IMG/VR virus record: IMGVR_UViG_3300049442_000288
Coordinates: 1 to 21,645 of that record
Reading direction: 5' to 3' (one strand)
Length of the DNA stretch: 21,645 nt
Source: a virus
Positions 8,447 through 14,108 of this stretch are shown here, piece by piece (the first letter of the stretch is position 1; each line of letters opens with the position of its first letter). A model generated the notes under the pieces. That model was not told the origin of the DNA. It was given only the letters and a program-made list of their open reading frames with translations, and searched no databases. The translations under genes and the position numbers were made by a program.

Positions 8447-8810
8447 CGAAATCTCCCGTCTCGTGTCCGCCGCAATTCGACCAACGCTCGGTCGTGTTGC
8501 CCCACATCGACGTGCCGACGGTTGTCGTCCCGCCACTGAGGAGGAAACGCCCCGCGCAGAGCTCCTTGCGGTCGACGCACCAGATCCATTGCTCGCTGCC
8601 GGTCTCCTTCACCGCGGTGCGCATGGCCGCGCGTGCGGCCTTCTTCGCCTCGCTCGGCAGGTCGAACACACCCGCCTCGCGCTCGGTGCCGTGCAAGACC
8701 TGCTCGCGGGCCTCGTACTCCTCGCCCGGCCCGGCGTCGCACATGTGGTACGCGTACGCGTGCAGGAACGTCTCGCCCACCTGCTCACGCGTGAATCGTT
8801 CGCGCTTCAT
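8439..8810 (-). CDS. Unknown protein (123 aa)
   Basis: Not recognised. It has a basic helical N-terminus (MKRERFTREQVGETFLHAYAY), an acidic middle and a C-terminal Gly/Thr-rich segment (SGGTTTVGTSMWGN). Four Cys are scattered and do not form an obvious zinc knuckle. The ATG at 8810 overlaps the upstream stop (ATGA). The long in-frame region upstream of this ATG is a shadow of the next gene. Confidence 0.65.
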   Translation of the reverse strand: MKRERFTREQVGETFLHAYAYHMCDAGPGEEYEAREQVLHGTEREAGVFDLPSEAKKAARAAMRTAVKETGSEQWIWCVDRKELCAGRFLLSGGTTTVGTSMWGNTTERWSNCGGHETGDFGE

Positions 8811-9382
8811 CCGACACCTCGCACGGCGTTCCAGTCCTTCAGGTTCGCCCAGTGCAGCGGCACGAGGTTGATGTGCCGCCCGGTGATCACGAGCCCGTTC
8901 GGGATCGCGTTGGCGACGTAGTGCATCTGCTTGAGGTACGTGCGCGGTGCGGTGCGCTCCTCCAGCGGTGCGTCGGCCAGCGGCACGTAGTGCGGTGCAG
9001 CCAAGCCCTCGGTCGCCACGAGCGCGAGCCCGTCGTGCGGGCTCCGATCGTAGGTGTACAGCTTTGTATACATTGTGGCTCTGTTCACTTTGGTCTCCGG
9101 TTGGTTGTGGTCGAGCTTGCCTTCTTCCTTCGCGATGTCGCGGCCCGCGCGATACCACGCGTAGCCGATCATCTGCCGGGCCTGACGGCTGGCAAAGCCG
9201 TTGATGCCCTTGGTGACGAAGTCGTAGCCGTTCCAGAACGCGATGGCGAACGAACTGCCGTAGCTCCCGCGCTCGCGACGCTTGCCCTTCACGAACAGGC
9301 TCGGGTGCCGCACGTCGTACGCGCGGCGTGCCGCCGTGTACTGGCCCTGCATGTACGGGTCTTTGAATGGATTGGTAGTCAT
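8807..9382 (-). CDS. Apparent in-frame fusion of two small phage proteins (191 aa)
   Basis: Residues 1-98 resemble a small phage protein type (NPFKDPYMQGQYTAARRAYDV, SSFAIAFWNGYDF, IGYAWYRAGRDIA). At residues 95-104 the DNA contains CCGGAGACCAAA, a GTG codon (9086-9088) and a GTATAC palindrome (9066-9071). These are exactly the elements that start other genes of this operon, yet no stop codon separates the halves. Initiation at the internal GTG would give a 93-residue product containing only the second domain (HYVPLADAPLEERTAPRTYL through LVPLHWANLKDWN). The main ATG at 9382 shares one base with the upstream stop (TGATG). Both a full-length and a short product are possible. Confidence 0.65.
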   Translation of the reverse strand: MTTNPFKDPYMQGQYTAARRAYDVRHPSLFVKGKRRERGSYGSSFAIAFWNGYDFVTKGINGFASRQARQMIGYAWYRAGRDIAKEEGKLDHNQPETKVNRATMYTKLYTYDRSPHDGLALVATEGLAAPHYVPLADAPLEERTAPRTYLKQMHYVANAIPNGLVITGRHINLVPLHWANLKDWNAVRGVG

Positions 9383-9912
9383 CAGTAGATCGCCCACGGG
9401 TGGCCGTCCTCGAACGCTTCGAGCGCGCGATCGCGCACGCCGACCTCGACGTCAGGCACGTCGCTCGGCGCGAGGATGTTGAGATGGAACGGACCCTCGG
9501 CATCCTCGGCCATGCGGTCGAACGCGTGCGCGTACGCGCGCGTGGTCGCCGGGTACGCCACGAGGCTGGTCGACTCCGCGCAGTCGCAGTCACGCGACCA
9601 GCTTTCGATCAGCACGACGCGACGGCCGACGTTCTGGTTCCCTTCGATCGGGTTCCAGCAGAAGATGCCCATGCGGCGCGCGCGATCGGCACCGATGGCA
9701 TTCTCGCGGATGTTGCGGCGCAGGTTGCGCGCGTTCGCACGCTCACGCTGGCGGCAGGTGCGCTCGAACAGATCCTTGCCTGCGGCGGCGATCTCGTCGA
9801 CGTTCGCCTCGGTGGCGAGGCCCGCGGCCTTGTACGCGCGCCACGCGATCAGCACGCAGTGGCTGGTCTCGACGTAGTCGGTGGGGATGGGAAGATCGAT
9901 TTGGAATTTCAT
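9382..9912 (-). CDS. Unknown protein (176 aa)
   Basis: Not recognised. The start is the ATG at 9912 behind AACTGGAGACCACC, preceded by the TTGTATACAA element. The first third is helical (VLIAWRAYKAAGLATEANVDEIAA), followed by a basic stretch (RQRERANARNLRRNIRENA), a central beta-rich part and an acidic C-terminus. No signal, membrane or metal motif. It heads a coupled block that runs without gaps to 6776. Confidence 0.65.
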   Translation of the reverse strand: MKFQIDLPIPTDYVETSHCVLIAWRAYKAAGLATEANVDEIAAAGKDLFERTCRQRERANARNLRRNIRENAIGADRARRMGIFCWNPIEGNQNVGRRVVLIESWSRDCDCAESTSLVAYPATTRAYAHAFDRMAEDAEGPFHLNILAPSDVPDVEVGVRDRALEAFEDGHPWAIY

Positions 9913-9917
9913 GGTGG

Positions 9918-9943
9918 TCTCCAGTTGTGGGATTTGTATACAA
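9918..9943 (-). promoter_or_regulatory. Start-associated element (extended form)
   Basis: Minus strand: TTGTATACAA, six extra bases, AACTGGAGA, then the ATG at 9912. GTATAC occupies 9936-9941. One base upstream is a GCAGC/GCTGC triloop hairpin. Confidence 0.75.
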
Positions 9944-9944
9944 T

Positions 9945-9981
9945 GCAGCAACGCTGCCGAGTGCGGTCTCTGACACCGCAC
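9945..9981 (-). repeat. Two intergenic hairpins
   Basis: GCAGC (9945-9949), a 3-base loop and GCTGC (9953-9957); then GTGCGGT (9961-9967), a 7-base loop and ACCGCAC (9975-9981). They fill the gap between genes together with the start-associated element. There is no T-run. Confidence 0.7.
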
Positions 9982-9994
9982 CGAGCAAAGTTAC

Positions 9995-10378
9995 CTACCA
10001 GCGCCCGCCGTTCTCCATGAACATGATCTGGCGCTCCATGCTGCGCTCGCGCGCGTCGTCCATCTCGCGCTCTTGAATCACCTTCCAGAGCAGCGCCTTG
10101 CGCCCCTTCAGGCGCGGCTCGTCGACGACCTCCACGACGCGCTTGCCGTGGCACACGCTGCAGGACACGTCGTAGTCGCCGCGGAAGTACGCCTCCTCGA
10201 AGTCCGGATCCTCGCGGAACTCCTCGGGGCTGATGCCGTTGCCATCGATGGCCGGGTTGGTGTGCGTGCCCTTGCCATCGCAGCGATCGCACACCTCGTA
10301 GCGCGCCGGGAACACGACCTCGAACTCGCGGTCGCTGTGGCGGCTGTAGTGCGTCTTGGTGACGGTGACGGCGCTCAT
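9995..10378 (-). CDS. DnaJ-like zinc-finger protein (127 aa)
   Basis: Two CxxC knuckles, Cys30/Cys33 in CDRCDGKGTH and Cys73/Cys76 in CSVCHGKR, resemble the CxxCxGxG repeats of the DnaJ central zinc domain. The J domain is absent. The spacer between knuckles is acidic and the C-terminus is a charged helix. The ATG at 10378 follows AGGAGAGC and overlaps the upstream stop (ATGA). Such short DnaJ-type zinc proteins are frequent in phages; partner unknown. Confidence 0.7.
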   Translation of the reverse strand: MSAVTVTKTHYSRHSDREFEVVFPARYEVCDRCDGKGTHTNPAIDGNGISPEEFREDPDFEEAYFRGDYDVSCSVCHGKRVVEVVDEPRLKGRKALLWKVIQEREMDDARERSMERQIMFMENGGRW

Positions 10379-10743
10379 GCTCTCCTCCCTTGATCGAGGA
10401 GCCACTTGCGGCGCTCGTCCGGACAGCAGGCGCGGCACGGTCCGCCCTCGGCGTTCTCGAAGCCGTCGCCACCGCAGTGCGAGCAGTAGCGCACCTTGGT
10501 CTGATGCGCCACTTCGAGCGTGGGCTCGTCGATGCTGCGCACGGCGGTGCCGTCGACCAAGATCGTGGAGCGGATGCGGTCGAGCTTTACGCGTACCTTC
10601 TCGGTGGTGCCGTTGAGCGCGACCACGCTGCCGAACCGCGCGCCGCGCATCCAGAAGTCGGTGCCGGGGTGCATCTCGACGCGGGAGTGAAGCTTGATGG
10701 TCGAGCCATCGAAGCCGGTGATGGTATTGAAGTTGTCTTTCAT
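10375..10743 (-). CDS. Small beta-barrel-like protein with C-terminal zinc knuckles (122 aa)
   Basis: Residues 20-75 look beta-rich and SH3/KOW-like (FWMRGARFGSVVALNGTTEKVRVKL). The C-terminus has CSHCGGDG (Cys87/Cys90) and CRACC (Cys103/Cys106 or 107), a four-Cys zinc site of the CxxCxGxG type like the coupled downstream protein. The ATG at 10743 follows ACTGGAGAATGCC and the TTGTATACAA element. The pairing of two zinc-knuckle proteins in one coupled unit suggests joint action, which is inference. Confidence 0.65.
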   Translation of the reverse strand: MKDNFNTITGFDGSTIKLHSRVEMHPGTDFWMRGARFGSVVALNGTTEKVRVKLDRIRSTILVDGTAVRSIDEPTLEVAHQTKVRYCSHCGGDGFENAEGGPCRACCPDERRKWLLDQGRRA

Positions 10744-10748
10744 GGCAT

Positions 10749-10773
10749 TCTCCAGTTGTGGTTTTGTATACAA
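10749..10773 (-). promoter_or_regulatory. Start-associated element (extended form)
   Basis: Minus strand: TTGTATACAA, an inserted AACCAC, AACTGGAGA, then the ATG at 10743. GTATAC occupies 10766-10771. Confidence 0.75.
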
Positions 10774-10776
10774 TGT

Positions 10777-10828
10777 CGGGTCGTTAGCCCGCCGCTGCCG
10801 CCTCGCGTGAGCGTGGCGACAGGGGCAG
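10777..10828 (-). repeat. Intergenic hairpins
   Basis: CGGG (10777-10780) with CCCG (10788-10791), and CTGCC (10795-10799) with GGCAG (10824-10828) enclosing GCC/GGC and CGC/GCG pairs. They lie between the stop at 10833 and the start-associated element. Confidence 0.55.
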
Positions 10829-10832
10829 TCGA

Positions 10833-11342
10833 TTACTTCCGCTCGAACTGCTTGGTGCGCTCCAGCAGAGCGCGTGCGTTCTTGACGTCGTCCTCGGCCT
10901 TGGCGAAGCTCGCGCGATCCTCGTCGAGCTCGTGGACGTCGTCCGCGTGCTCCTCAAGGCCCACGTCCGCGACCGGCAGCACCTCGGCCAGCGCCTCGCG
11001 CAACTGGGCGATGATGTCGGCGCGCATGTTCGACTGGCTGCGCGTCAGCGCCAGCGCCTGCTCGAAGTGGTCCCACGGCTTGGCGGTGCCATCCTCGGGC
11101 GGGCAGTCGAACAGGCCCATGCTGCGCAGGGTGATGCGGGCGAACGCCACGTCGCTCGTGAGGTTCGGGCTCTGTGCGATCACGAGCAGCGTGGCGAGAA
11201 GCTCCGGCGCTGCGTGCGCGATGCGCAGTTCCATCGCGATCGCCTGCGAGGTCGGGCTCTTCTCATCGATGATGAGCTCGAGTGGTTGCGGCTTTGCGCC
11301 GATGTCGATCATCTGAAAGAAGCGGGGGGTGTTGATGCTCAT
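10833..11342 (-). CDS. Unknown, largely helical protein (169 aa)
   Basis: Not recognised as a named family. The stretch LRIAHAAPELLATLLVIAQ resembles the 'AAPELL' helix common in small phage proteins of unknown role. The C-terminal 60 residues are strongly acidic and helical (VADVGLEEHADDVHELDEDRASFAKAE in part), likely a coiled coil. The ATG at 11342 follows CTGGAGAAAATTCA and the start-associated element. No catalytic motif is visible. Confidence 0.6.
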   Translation of the reverse strand: MSINTPRFFQMIDIGAKPQPLELIIDEKSPTSQAIAMELRIAHAAPELLATLLVIAQSPNLTSDVAFARITLRSMGLFDCPPEDGTAKPWDHFEQALALTRSQSNMRADIIAQLREALAEVLPVADVGLEEHADDVHELDEDRASFAKAEDDVKNARALLERTKQFERK

Positions 11343-11349
11343 TGAATTT

Positions 11350-11374
11350 TCTCCAGTTGTGGTTTTGTATACAT
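11350..11374 (-). promoter_or_regulatory. Start-associated element (extended form)
   Basis: Minus strand: ATGTATACAA, AACCAC, AACTGGAGA, then the ATG at 11342. GTATAC occupies 11367-11372. One palindrome position differs from the consensus. There is no hairpin because the upstream stop is only 16 bases away. Confidence 0.7.
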
Positions 11375-11389
11375 TGGGTGGCAGCGGGA

Positions 11390-11635
11390 TCATTGGACTG
11401 CGGTGTCCTGCGCGCGCGCCGCGGCAATGATCTCGTTGTGCCGGATGTCGGCGACCTCGGCGTCGAGCTTGTCGAGGGCGTCGACAAGGGTGTTGCCCGA
11501 GGCGGCGATCGCCTCGCGCTGGCGGAAGACGAGCAGCGCCCAGAAGTGTTTGTCGCTCGTGGTGAACGGCTCGACGATTACGCGTGCGCCGTCGGCGCGG
11601 TTGGCAAACAGGAAAGCGGTGATGTTGTCGTGCAT
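11390..11635 (-). CDS. Unknown small protein (81 aa)
   Basis: Not recognised. A beta-rich N-terminal half (NITAFLFANRADGARVIVEPF, HFWALLVFRQ) is followed by an amphipathic helix (LVDALDKLDAEVADIRHNEIIAA). The ATG at 11635 follows CCGGAGACCCAC, a variant of the shared ribosome site without the GTATAC palindrome; the upstream gene stops 17 bases away. Confidence 0.6.
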   Translation of the reverse strand: MHDNITAFLFANRADGARVIVEPFTTSDKHFWALLVFRQREAIAASGNTLVDALDKLDAEVADIRHNEIIAAARAQDTAVQ

Positions 11636-11652
11636 GTGGGTCTCCGGTTGGT

Positions 11653-11889
11653 TTAGCGGTGGCTGACGTCGACGACAGCGCCGGTGTCGAACAGCGCGAC
11701 GATGGCCTCGGCGTCCTTCAGGCTCGCCGTGTCGAACTGGTACGTCGTGCCGTAGTTGCGGATGCACACGTCGTAGACGATGGAGCCATCGGTCAGCGTC
11801 TTCGCGACGATGCGCGGCTTCATTGCGTCGGCGTCGACGGCGGTCGGTTGCGGCCACGGCTTGGTGCGGATCTGGATCGTGTCGTTCAT
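11653..11889 (-). CDS. Unknown small protein (78 aa)
   Basis: Not recognised. It appears as a compact alpha/beta fold with strands PRIVAKTLTDGSIVYDVCIRN and TTYQFDTA, then a helix (LKDAEAIVALFD). It uses a TAA stop, unlike the TGA used by most genes here. The ATG at 11889 follows GGAGACCACC. The start-associated element lies just upstream in a variant where CCCTTTTT replaces the usual AACT stretch. Confidence 0.6.
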   Translation of the reverse strand: MNDTIQIRTKPWPQPTAVDADAMKPRIVAKTLTDGSIVYDVCIRNYGTTYQFDTASLKDAEAIVALFDTGAVVDVSHR

Positions 11890-11894
11890 GGTGG

Positions 11895-11920
11895 TCTCCA
11901 AAAAGGGAAGTTGTATACAA
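11895..11920 (-). promoter_or_regulatory. Start-associated element (divergent linker)
   Basis: Minus strand: TTGTATACAA, then CTTCCCTTTTTGGAGA. GTATAC occupies 11913-11918. The palindrome is perfect while the linker to GGAGA has changed, arguing that the palindrome is the part under selection. Confidence 0.7.
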
Positions 11921-11924
11921 TGTT

Positions 11925-11965
11925 GCAGCGGTGCTGCCTGCAGCCGCCTCGGACAGAGGCGACTG
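11925..11965 (-). repeat. Two intergenic hairpins
   Basis: GCAGC (11925-11929), a 3-base loop and GCTGC (11933-11937); then CAG-CGCCTC (11941-11950) pairing with GAGGCG-CTG (11956-11965) with one internal mismatch. Same order as at 9945-9981, with different loop sequences. Confidence 0.7.
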
Positions 11966-11974
11966 AGGGCATCA

Positions 11975-12649
11975 TCACTCAGCCTGTGCGTCGGCGGGAG
12001 GAGCCGAGGAGGAAACCTCGAACCTGCGCCACGACTGCGTGCCTGACCAGCCGCGGAAGCCGTCCGGCTCGCGCACCCAGTACACGCGACCGCGGTCGGT
12101 GTAGCGCGCTCTGGCGTCCTTCCCAGAGGGCAGCTTGCGGCGCTCGCCGGGCAGGATCGGTGCCGGGCCCGCCGTGCGCTCGACCTCGCGCAGCGGCTGG
12201 CCGTGACGCGCATCCGCCACGCCCGCGAGGAACGCGACGAAGGCGCGGCCGCTGCGCTCGCGGTGCTCAAGCTGGCCGACCTCGCTGCGCACCGCGAGCA
12301 CCTGCGCGTACTCATTGGCTTGGTCGAACGGCACCAGTTCGTACCGGCGCACGCCATGCTTGAGCACGTAGGCCGTGCCGTTGGCCTTCTCAGGCTTCAC
12401 GGTCCCGGCTTCCAGCCCAGCGATGCGCACGAGCATCTCGTCGCACTGCTTGGTCACGTCGGCGATGACCTTGTCGGCCATCGTGCGCGAGACCTGCAGC
12501 GGCTCGTACTGGTTGCCTTGGCACACGCCGCTGAAGTAGCCGTGCTCGACCGTGTAGCCGTGGTGCGCCATCGCGCCGTTCTTGACGGCCTGCTCGCGGC
12601 CGCACAGTTGGCAGTGGCCGCGGCGTTGGATGTTGTTGCTGTCTCTCAT
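11975..12649 (-). CDS. Putative zinc-binding phage protein (224 aa)
   Basis: The N-terminus has CQLCGREQAVKNGAMAHHGY followed by GVCQG: Cys13, Cys16, one of His29/His30 and Cys43 form a likely zinc site, a pattern I have seen at the start of many phage and plasmid hypothetical proteins. The middle (50-130) is a long helix set, with helices around MADKVIADVTKQCDEMLVRI. The C-terminal part has a YWVREPDGFRGWSG segment. The ATG at 12649 follows CTGGAGAATGCACC and the compact start-associated element. Largest of the minus-strand accessory genes; function unknown. Confidence 0.65.
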   Translation of the reverse strand: MRDSNNIQRRGHCQLCGREQAVKNGAMAHHGYTVEHGYFSGVCQGNQYEPLQVSRTMADKVIADVTKQCDEMLVRIAGLEAGTVKPEKANGTAYVLKHGVRRYELVPFDQANEYAQVLAVRSEVGQLEHRERSGRAFVAFLAGVADARHGQPLREVERTAGPAPILPGERRKLPSGKDARARYTDRGRVYWVREPDGFRGWSGTQSWRRFEVSSSAPPADAQAE

Positions 12650-12656
12650 GGTGCAT

Positions 12657-12673
12657 TCTCCAGTTGTATACAA
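12657..12673 (-). promoter_or_regulatory. Start-associated element (compact form)
   Basis: Minus strand: TTGTATACAACTGGAGA, then the ATG at 12649. GTATAC occupies 12666-12671. It nearly abuts the upstream stop at 12676, so the 17-base unit is the whole gap apart from a few bases. Confidence 0.8.
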
Positions 12674-12675
12674 TG

Positions 12676-12912
12676 TCAAGGTTTGGCGGCGGCGTCTTGC
12701 ACCGTCGTCGTCTGGTCGTCGAGGCCGTCGATCAGCGTGCTGATCTCGTCGAGGAAGTTCTGCACGCGCTGGCCCTTGTCGCCGTCCTGCAGCGACGAAG
12801 GCATGTTGTCGTACACCTCCTGCTCCTCGTCGCGGATCTCTTCGAGTTGCTGCGTGGCGAGGCGGATGGATTCGAGCGCGGCAGCGAGCCGCTTGCGGCG
12901 TTGGTCGTTCAT
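12676..12912 (-). CDS. Coiled-coil small protein (78 aa)
   Basis: Not recognised. Almost entirely charged helix: KRLAAALESIRLATQQLEEI followed by RDEEQEVYDNM and VQNFLDEISTLIDGLDD. Consistent with a dimeric coiled coil. The ATG at 12912 follows AACTGGAGACCACCGCA; here the upstream TTGTATACAA palindrome is missing and only CACCCACAACTGGAGA remains. Confidence 0.65.
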   Translation of the reverse strand: MNDQRRKRLAAALESIRLATQQLEEIRDEEQEVYDNMPSSLQDGDKGQRVQNFLDEISTLIDGLDDQTTTVQDAAAKP

Positions 12913-12940
12913 TGCGGTGGTCTCCAGTTGTGGGTGGGTG

Positions 12941-12978
12941 TTGCCCGATGCCGCCCCGTGAGGAGCGGCAAACGGCAA
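12941..12978 (-). repeat. Nested intergenic hairpin
   Basis: Outer TTGCC (12941-12945) pairs with GGCAA (12974-12978); inner TGCCGC (12949-12954) pairs with GCGGCA (12965-12970). On the minus strand it begins right after the stop as TGAGTCTTGCC, a string shared with the gaps at 14154 and 14802. Confidence 0.75.
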
Positions 12979-12981
12979 GAC

Positions 12982-13284
12982 TCAGAAGGGGATCGGATCG
13001 GTCGAGTAGTCGGCCAAGTCCCAGCCCTCGTCGGGCTCGCAGTCATCCTCGGGATGACGGCCCGAGGAGACGCCGGTGAAGTGCGGGTTGCGTTCCCATG
13101 TGTCGTACGGGGAGAGCACCCACTCATCGTCGGGGCGGTAGGCTCCCTCGACGCCGGCCCACTGGGCGATCGCGGCGCTCATCCACTGGCCGTGGGTCAT
13201 GGCGTCGTTGCGGAGCGCATCCTCGCGCTCCTGTTCGTAGGTGTAGAGGTCATTGAGGCTGTCCTCGCGGGTGTAGTCAGGCAT
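12982..13284 (-). CDS. Unknown acidic protein (100 aa)
   Basis: Not recognised. The N-terminal half is helical (YTREDSLNDLYTYEQEREDAL, GQWMSAAIAQWAGVEG). The C-terminal half is acidic and aromatic with little predicted structure (DDEWVLSPYDTW, PEDDCEPDEGWDLADYSTD). Strong negative charge is also typical of DNA-mimic anti-defence proteins, but that is only a loose analogy. The ATG at 13284 follows CTGGAGAATACCGCA and the compact start-associated element. Confidence 0.65.
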   Translation of the reverse strand: MPDYTREDSLNDLYTYEQEREDALRNDAMTHGQWMSAAIAQWAGVEGAYRPDDEWVLSPYDTWERNPHFTGVSSGRHPEDDCEPDEGWDLADYSTDPIPF

Positions 13285-13292
13285 TGCGGTAT

Positions 13293-13309
13293 TCTCCAGT
13301 TGTATACAA
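13293..13309 (-). promoter_or_regulatory. Start-associated element (compact form)
   Basis: Minus strand: TTGTATACAACTGGAGA, then the ATG at 13284. GTATAC occupies 13302-13307. The upstream stop is only seven bases away. Confidence 0.8.
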
Positions 13310-13315
13310 AGTGGT

Positions 13316-13396
13316 TCAGTGGTTGACGGCGATCGCGCAGGCGATGAAGAAGGCCGACGCGCAGAACAGCAGCAGGGCGATGGCGAGCGTCCTCAT
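13316..13396 (-). CDS. Tiny single-TM peptide (26 aa)
   Basis: Nearly the whole peptide is one hydrophobic helix (LAIALLLFCASAFFIACAIA) after MRT. The ATG at 13396 overlaps the stop of the upstream gene (ATGA), and a GGAGG lies just upstream inside that gene. The coupling and position between two clear genes make it more than a chance frame, but its size keeps confidence moderate. It could be a membrane toxin-like or regulatory peptide. Confidence 0.5.
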   Translation of the reverse strand: MRTLAIALLLFCASAFFIACAIAVNH

Positions 13397-13761
13397 GCGG
13401 CCTCCTTGGCGCGCGACCAGACCAGCACGTCCCAAGTGCCGGTCCACGGCGTGTAGTTGCCGTCGTGGTAGTCGCGGACCGAGTCGGCGTGGTCGTAGCC
13501 GCCGGACACGTAGAGGTGCGTCACGCCGGGGTGGTTGGCCTTGACGTCGGCGATGGCGGCGCGGATCTCGTGCCAAGTGCCGCGCCAGAAGTGGCATTCG
13601 GCGGCGGGCAGCGGGCCGCACTGCCCACCGGCGTCGGCGGTGCAGAGCCAAGTGCCGCGGGACTGGTGGACGCCGCGACGGCCGCAGTCGGCGATGGACT
13701 CGCGCAGGGCGGCGTTGCGGGCGGCGGTGATCTGGTGCTTGAGGGTGTTGAGAGGGGTCAT
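13393..13761 (-). CDS. Unknown protein (122 aa)
   Basis: Not recognised. The N-terminal helix (TLKHQITAARNAALRESIAD) is followed by a Cys/His/Trp-rich central part (Cys26, Cys40, Cys49 and Cys57 with several His) that might bind a metal. A C-terminal alpha/beta segment has THLYVSGGYDHAD and WDVLVWSRAKE. The ATG at 13761 follows CAGGAGACCACC without a GTATAC palindrome. A strong hairpin (13791-13816) lies in the gap upstream. Confidence 0.65.
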   Translation of the reverse strand: MTPLNTLKHQITAARNAALRESIADCGRRGVHQSRGTWLCTADAGGQCGPLPAAECHFWRGTWHEIRAAIADVKANHPGVTHLYVSGGYDHADSVRDYHDGNYTPWTGTWDVLVWSRAKEAA

Positions 13762-13790
13762 GGTGGTCTCCTGTTCGGCGGGATGCCGTC

Positions 13791-13816
13791 GCAGCGCCCT
13801 CGTTGGAAGGCGCTGC
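13791..13816 (-). terminator. Strong intergenic hairpin
   Basis: GCAGCGCC (13791-13798), a 10-base loop and GGCGCTGC (13809-13816), a perfect 8-bp stem. It lies ten bases past the stop at 13826. It is terminator-like in stem strength but lacks a T-run on the minus strand, so it may instead be a processing or stability element. Confidence 0.5.
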
Positions 13817-13825
13817 AGCTGCTTC

Positions 13826-14083
13826 TCACTTGACGGGTGGCGGTAGCAGGAAGCCATGCTCGGTGGCCCACGTGACCGCGGCCTTGACGGCCAGCGCGGC
13901 GGACTGGCAATCCTCGACCAGTTCGAGCTCGGCGTCGCCGCTGCGCTGGTTGAAGATGGTCAGCTGCCAGTCGTAGACGTCAGCGCCGAGAACCTGTGCG
14001 ATCGTGACGGCGATCTCGCGATCGGCCAGCGCGCGGTTGAGGGCCTTGAGGTTGGTGAGGGTCTCGATCATTGCGTAGCTCAT
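13826..14083 (-). CDS. Unknown small protein (85 aa)
   Basis: Not recognised. Pattern: helix (MIETLTNLKALNRALADREI), strands (VTIAQVLGADVYDWQLTIFNQ, DAELELVED) and helix (SAALAVKAAVTWATEHG), a small alpha/beta fold. The ATG at 14083 follows CTGGAGAACACC and the compact start-associated element. The stop is separated from the next gene by the hairpin at 13791-13816. Confidence 0.65.
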   Translation of the reverse strand: MSYAMIETLTNLKALNRALADREIAVTIAQVLGADVYDWQLTIFNQRSGDAELELVEDCQSAALAVKAAVTWATEHGFLLPPPVK

Positions 14084-14088
14084 GGTGT

Positions 14089-14105
14089 TCTCCAGTTGTA
14101 TACAT
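14089..14105 (-). promoter_or_regulatory. Start-associated element (compact form)
   Basis: Minus strand: ATGTATACAACTGGAGA, then the ATG at 14083. GTATAC occupies 14098-14103. One palindrome flank base differs (ATG for TTG). Confidence 0.8.
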
Positions 14106-14108
14106 TGT

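Follow-up and report, generated by a model that had tools for sequence, protein, structure and literature searches.

The 191-amino acid open reading frame (ORF) at 9382–8807 on the minus strand of an uncultured tailed phage probably arose when two small genes were joined in frame at a start-associated sequence, with the 93-amino acid protein encoded by its COOH-terminal half (C-half) predicted still to be initiated internally. The window, by which we mean the entire stretch of DNA analyzed, is a virus record of 21,645 bases that encodes both a VapE-type primase-helicase and a terminase, the latter showing at most 49% identity to any record in the phage collection. The ORF belongs to a run of small minus-strand genes that extends from approximately 15.1 kb down to 8.4 kb; we lettered the genes of this run A to O, following the direction in which they are read. 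The start of the 191-amino acid coding sequence (CDS) overlaps the stop codon of the preceding gene (TGATG), and its own stop codon overlaps the start of the next (ATGA). Features are listed in Table 1.

Table 1. Coordinates of the 191-amino acid ORF, its embedded elements, and related features of the window.
Feature	Position	Strand	Evidence or remarks
Fused CDS, 191 amino acids	8807..9382	minus	ATG 9382-9380, TGA 8809-8807; present in five other records
N-half, approximately residues 1-98	9089..9382	minus	homology to COOH-terminal domain of RHEph10 gp106; GC3 0.87
C-half, 93 amino acids from internal GTG	8807..9088	minus	no homologue found; GC3 0.85; codon score best in ORF frame
Embedded start signal ACCAACCGGAGACCAAA-GTG	9086..9105	minus	15-nt identity with signal at 11655-11634; matrix score; CAACYGGAGA count
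Embedded palindrome element ATGTATACAA	9064..9073	minus	palindrome motif matches
Sibling start signal, genes H/I, TAA-ACCAACCGGAGACCCAC-ATG	11632..11655	minus	closest match to embedded signal
Further module copies, TGTATACAA at 9934, 10764, 11365, 11911, 12664, 13300, 14096, 14741	9910..14749	minus	each followed by start signal and small gene
Module TTGTATACAACTGGAGAACCACCATG before gene A	15033..15061	minus	same stretch precedes gene D in G001/G003/G006
Hairpin-bearing intergenic regions	14816-14724, 14164-14081, 12984-12913, 11977-11888, 10835-10744, 9997-9913	minus	

The ORF contains the sequence CAACCGGAGACCAAA-GTG, with the GTG at 9088-9086, followed 14 nt on by GTATACAA. The original prediction had described CCGGAGACCAAA-GTG and GTATAC within the 191-codon frame; both are present, although the gap between them is 14 rather than 15 nt, and translation from 9088 yields exactly the 93 residues that had been predicted. 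The GTATAC motif occupies 9071-9066 on the minus strand, and CACAATGTATACAA starts 8 nt past the internal GTG, so that the palindrome is also embedded, downstream of the start signal. A comparison of AACCAACCGGAGACCAAA-GTG in the ORF with TAAACCAACCGGAGACCCAC-ATG, the start signal between genes H and I, which serves the gene starting at 11634, revealed identity over 15 nt. We scored the window with a 17-nt start-signal matrix, for which the training set comprised 12 other starts and excluded the embedded site. The embedded site ranked 12th over all positions on both strands, ahead of three of the training starts, and no site in 3 Mb of order-2 Markov sequence equaled its score. The internal GTG is in frame and has a GGAGA Shine-Dalgarno sequence at 5 nt, with spacing as in neighboring genes, but as a start codon it is weaker than the ATG of those genes. 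By eye only, CTG-TACACC after GTATAC bears a likeness to CTGGAGAACACC such as a decayed second start signal might show, on which we base no claim.

The embedded signal is one copy of an array. The motif CAACYGGAGA occurs 12 times in the window, compared with 0.05 expected: ten copies lie directly before small minus-strand genes, with 5 to 8 nt between GGAGA and the start codon, one is in the 191-amino acid ORF, and one is at the 3' end of a plus-strand gene. For TGTATACAA, 19 matches were found on both strands, again with 0.05 expected. Of the 11 minus-strand matches, nine directly adjoin the upstream side of a start signal or are separated from it by a few bases, and the remaining two are in the ORF and at 15575. 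The small minus-strand genes mostly share one start signal (CAACYGGAGA, 5 to 8 nt, ATG), usually with the palindrome TGTATACAA upstream and often with a hairpin. In the ordinary intergenic modules GTATAC is placed upstream of the GGAGA signal, whereas in the ORF copy this order is reversed, and the embedded module has no upstream hairpin. GGAGA alone occurs several times within coding sequence. On the plus strand, CAACTGGAGAATGTGAAAAAGTAGAGGAGTATACAATG (18381-18418), at the 3' end of the gene at 18243-18404 and before a start at 18416, consists of a start signal and then GTATAC, the same reversed order as in the ORF. Two more TGTATACAA elements lie at 15575-15677, in a stretch without clear genes (approximately 15.2 to 16.3 kb), and plus-strand site 15587 scored highly with the start-signal matrix. 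A role for TTGTATACAA as a promoter or terminator was rejected, given that a consensus scan revealed no promoter-like site at any pre-gene module and, on the minus strand, nothing resembling a terminator.

Stable hairpins occur shortly downstream of the preceding gene's stop codon in many of the longer intergenic regions. Their sequence is often TTGCC...GAGGCGG...GGCAA, with some pairs changed on both sides and no T-run. In an alignment of nine such regions, which was short and gappy and had no shuffle control, seven of ten predicted pairs showed at least one both-sided change. The hairpins gave no match in Rfam. They are possibly an element similar to the extended start-associated sequence (ESAS) of mycobacteriophages, a processing site, or a terminator.

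Both halves of the ORF behave as coding sequence. Their GC contents at codon position 3 are similar to those of neighboring genes (78–96%), and the codon score of each half is positive in the ORF frame only. The ten-codon windows spanning the join, however, ranked 4 and 6 of 1794 for rare codons in the gene run. Such codons would be expected if the DNA at the join had formerly been noncoding, but they would fit an inserted module equally well. Residues 4-99 of the N-half matched a hypothetical protein of Rhizobium phage RHEph10, gp106 (YP_009352395.1), with a tblastn E value of 4e-7 and 34% identity. The last approximately 95 residues of gp106 are homologous to the N-half, the domain there being fused to a different NH2-terminal region and forming the COOH-terminus of the protein; gp106 continues for a few residues beyond the position that corresponds to the join and lacks the C-half. 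An alignment scan with the N-half matched only the phage's own lineage and RHEph10, and homology outside the lineage rests on one phage at 34% identity. The suggestion that the halves look like separate proteins is supported: this independent homologue ends near the join, and the join itself contains module sequence and rare codons. For the C-half, searches by tblastn against phages, in PHROGs, and in viral contigs yielded no credible homologue outside the lineage, and the full-length 191-amino acid protein gave no match in a Pfam scan and no homologue in a genome-contig scan. An AlphaFold model of the full ORF was unusable (pLDDT of 38); that of the N-half, obtained with one homologue, had a pLDDT of 60 and gave no significant match in a PDB search.

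Five further IMG/VR records from different metagenomes carry the intact ORF, with only one SNP across the 576 nt, which excludes an assembly error. All full-length copies belong to one near-identical lineage, and the six records are too alike for the direction of the event or selection to be read from them. Records whose primase is 59% identical, and one at 91%, showed no match to the ORF, although these records may be fragments, and among the records searched none encodes the two halves separately. Four records that share the flanking sequence, including two from the group with the 59%-identical primase, have one such module (TTGTATACAACTGGAG), and this type of module therefore reaches beyond the closest lineage. 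A single TTGTATACAACTGGAGTACTACCC-GTG module was seen in distant relatives with a 59%-identical primase, at 16886 on the minus strand of L039 and in L051–L054.

Most likely, in our view, recombination or a small deletion placed the C-gene, beginning with its start signal, directly behind the end of the N-gene in one frame with no intervening stop codon. The joined site would perhaps be what is left of a gene that once lay between two modules, and such a loss would, speculatively, fit with the signal preceding the palindrome here. Ribosomes would then make the 191-amino acid fusion as well as the 93-amino acid C-protein from the GTG at 9088. The nested product is plausible on sequence grounds, given that its Shine-Dalgarno sequence and spacing are the same as those of neighboring genes. 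Loss of a stop codon, which had also been proposed, is not supported for a point change at the equivalent place: in the sibling module (11655-11634), the upstream TAA stands 20 nt ahead of the start codon and is not in phase with the fused frame. Point mutation of a stop placed like that of H/I, which is in another phase, would not yield the 191-amino acid ORF, and a join by recombination or an indel would appear to fit better than a point change. Several points speak against this reading, namely that no relative with separate halves turned up among the records searched, that the C-half has no homologue marking it as an independent gene, that the N-half homology depends on one phage, and that the embedded module has reversed order, no hairpin, and a GTG start.

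Some of these same features bear on the view that the genes were joined as described but that the embedded signal is dead, leaving the 191-amino acid fusion as the sole product. The presence of GTG in place of ATG, the misplaced palindrome, the absence of the upstream hairpin, and the loss of the usual order of module parts other than GGAGA would all suit such a relic. We nevertheless regard it as unlikely, because GGAGA is present at the same 5-nt spacing as in working neighbors and because none of the six records shows a change in the signal, although the gene hardly varies anywhere in them.

An alternative that dispenses with gene fusion is that the ORF encodes one ancestral two-domain protein whose gene either acquired an inserted start module or developed codons resembling one. 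That every known full-length copy is unbroken, and that no free-standing C gene was found in searches of phages by tblastn, PHROGs, or viral contigs, would be expected of such a protein. The sole distant homologue of the N-half, however, ends near the join without a C-half, and the rare codons there fit former noncoding DNA, even if they also fit an inserted module; we judge this origin quite improbable. Chance, with NQPETK-VNRATMYTK being ordinary coding sequence that happens to resemble signals, was already disfavored and appears very improbable indeed. Although GGAGA by itself is found at several coding sites, chance would have to place two independent elements, each expected approximately 0.05 times per window, less than 40 nt apart and on the right strand, and the 3 Mb of random sequence held no equally good site. 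An in-frame join with a start signal that probably still operates remains our preferred reading.

The modules mark gene-exchange borders, a conclusion supported by comparison with three related records (G001, G003, and G006). In these records, the stretch of approximately 100 nt found upstream of gene A in the window, extending to TTGTATACAACTGGAGAAC, sits before gene D, and the switch falls within the start signal. Nearby gene order and content also differ from those of the window. A second difference from the same records switches at the start of gene L, with no such module there. The proposal that the module serves as a recombination boundary thus holds for the module family, having been seen at one module other than the copy in the ORF. 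We also observed that the COOH-terminal part of gene K (10377-10520, minus strand) differs in related records, with 256 nt replacing 142 nt and one switch coinciding with the start codon of gene L.

Repeats of similar layout have been described in cluster K mycobacteriophages. The start-associated sequence (SAS) of these phages is a short asymmetric repeat that contains a Shine-Dalgarno sequence and lies, mostly in one orientation, before the starts of varied gene families, with one copy, Anaya site 7, located away from a gene start (PMC3203893). Approximately half of SAS sites have an ESAS, imperfect 17-bp inverted repeats with a short, variable spacer, upstream; the role of both repeats was left open at their first description (PMC3203893). 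The array in our phage likewise consists of repeats directly upstream of many starts, mostly in one orientation (10 of 12 CAACYGGAGA copies, minus strand). It differs in sequence (CAACYGGAGA versus GGGATAGGAGCCC in cluster K), in having the additional palindrome TTGTATACAA and one copy within a continuous coding frame, and in that a mycobacterial host is not evidenced. The 13-bp SAS GGGATAGGAGCCC was not found in the window with two or fewer deviations, and its three matches, all with three mismatches, compare with 5.2 expected by chance. The phage module resembles SAS/ESAS in layout but does not belong to that family. Cluster O mycobacteriophages possess 17-bp dyad repeats, short palindromes of which some lie inside reading frames near the 5' end, and one gene that has been gained or lost is bordered by a 17-bp direct repeat (PMC4351075). 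Repeated short palindromes, some inside reading frames, are common to both systems, but those of cluster O are not tied to translation starts, whereas the palindrome of this phage is mostly just upstream of the start signal. That short conserved boundary sequences serve as sites of mosaic exchange in phages is an old proposal (Susskind and Botstein 1978; Clark et al. 2001; both as cited in PMC3029335). As far as the proposal is represented there, the present case resembles it in that relatives share a short border sequence while having different genes next to it (A or D), but differs in that the border sequence is the translation-start signal itself and in that one copy lies in a coding frame.

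The fused ORF looks more like an unusual vestige of gene shuffling than like a novel type of system, and it concerns one gene in one lineage. Our findings add an uncultured phage lineage that carries a start-linked repeat module, one example of which is positioned exactly at a gene-exchange border. They also provide a concrete case of an exchange border that seems to have yielded a fused gene with a predicted inner start. The occurrence of hairpin, palindrome, and Shine-Dalgarno sequence as separable parts within the array makes the role of SAS/ESAS-like repeats easier to test. A more general idea, which we put forward tentatively and hold to be rather unlikely, is that start-associated modules act as in-frame joints, with exchange at these sites generating fusions that keep the inner start so that the downstream partner is still made alone. 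If true, it would provide a route to multidomain phage proteins.
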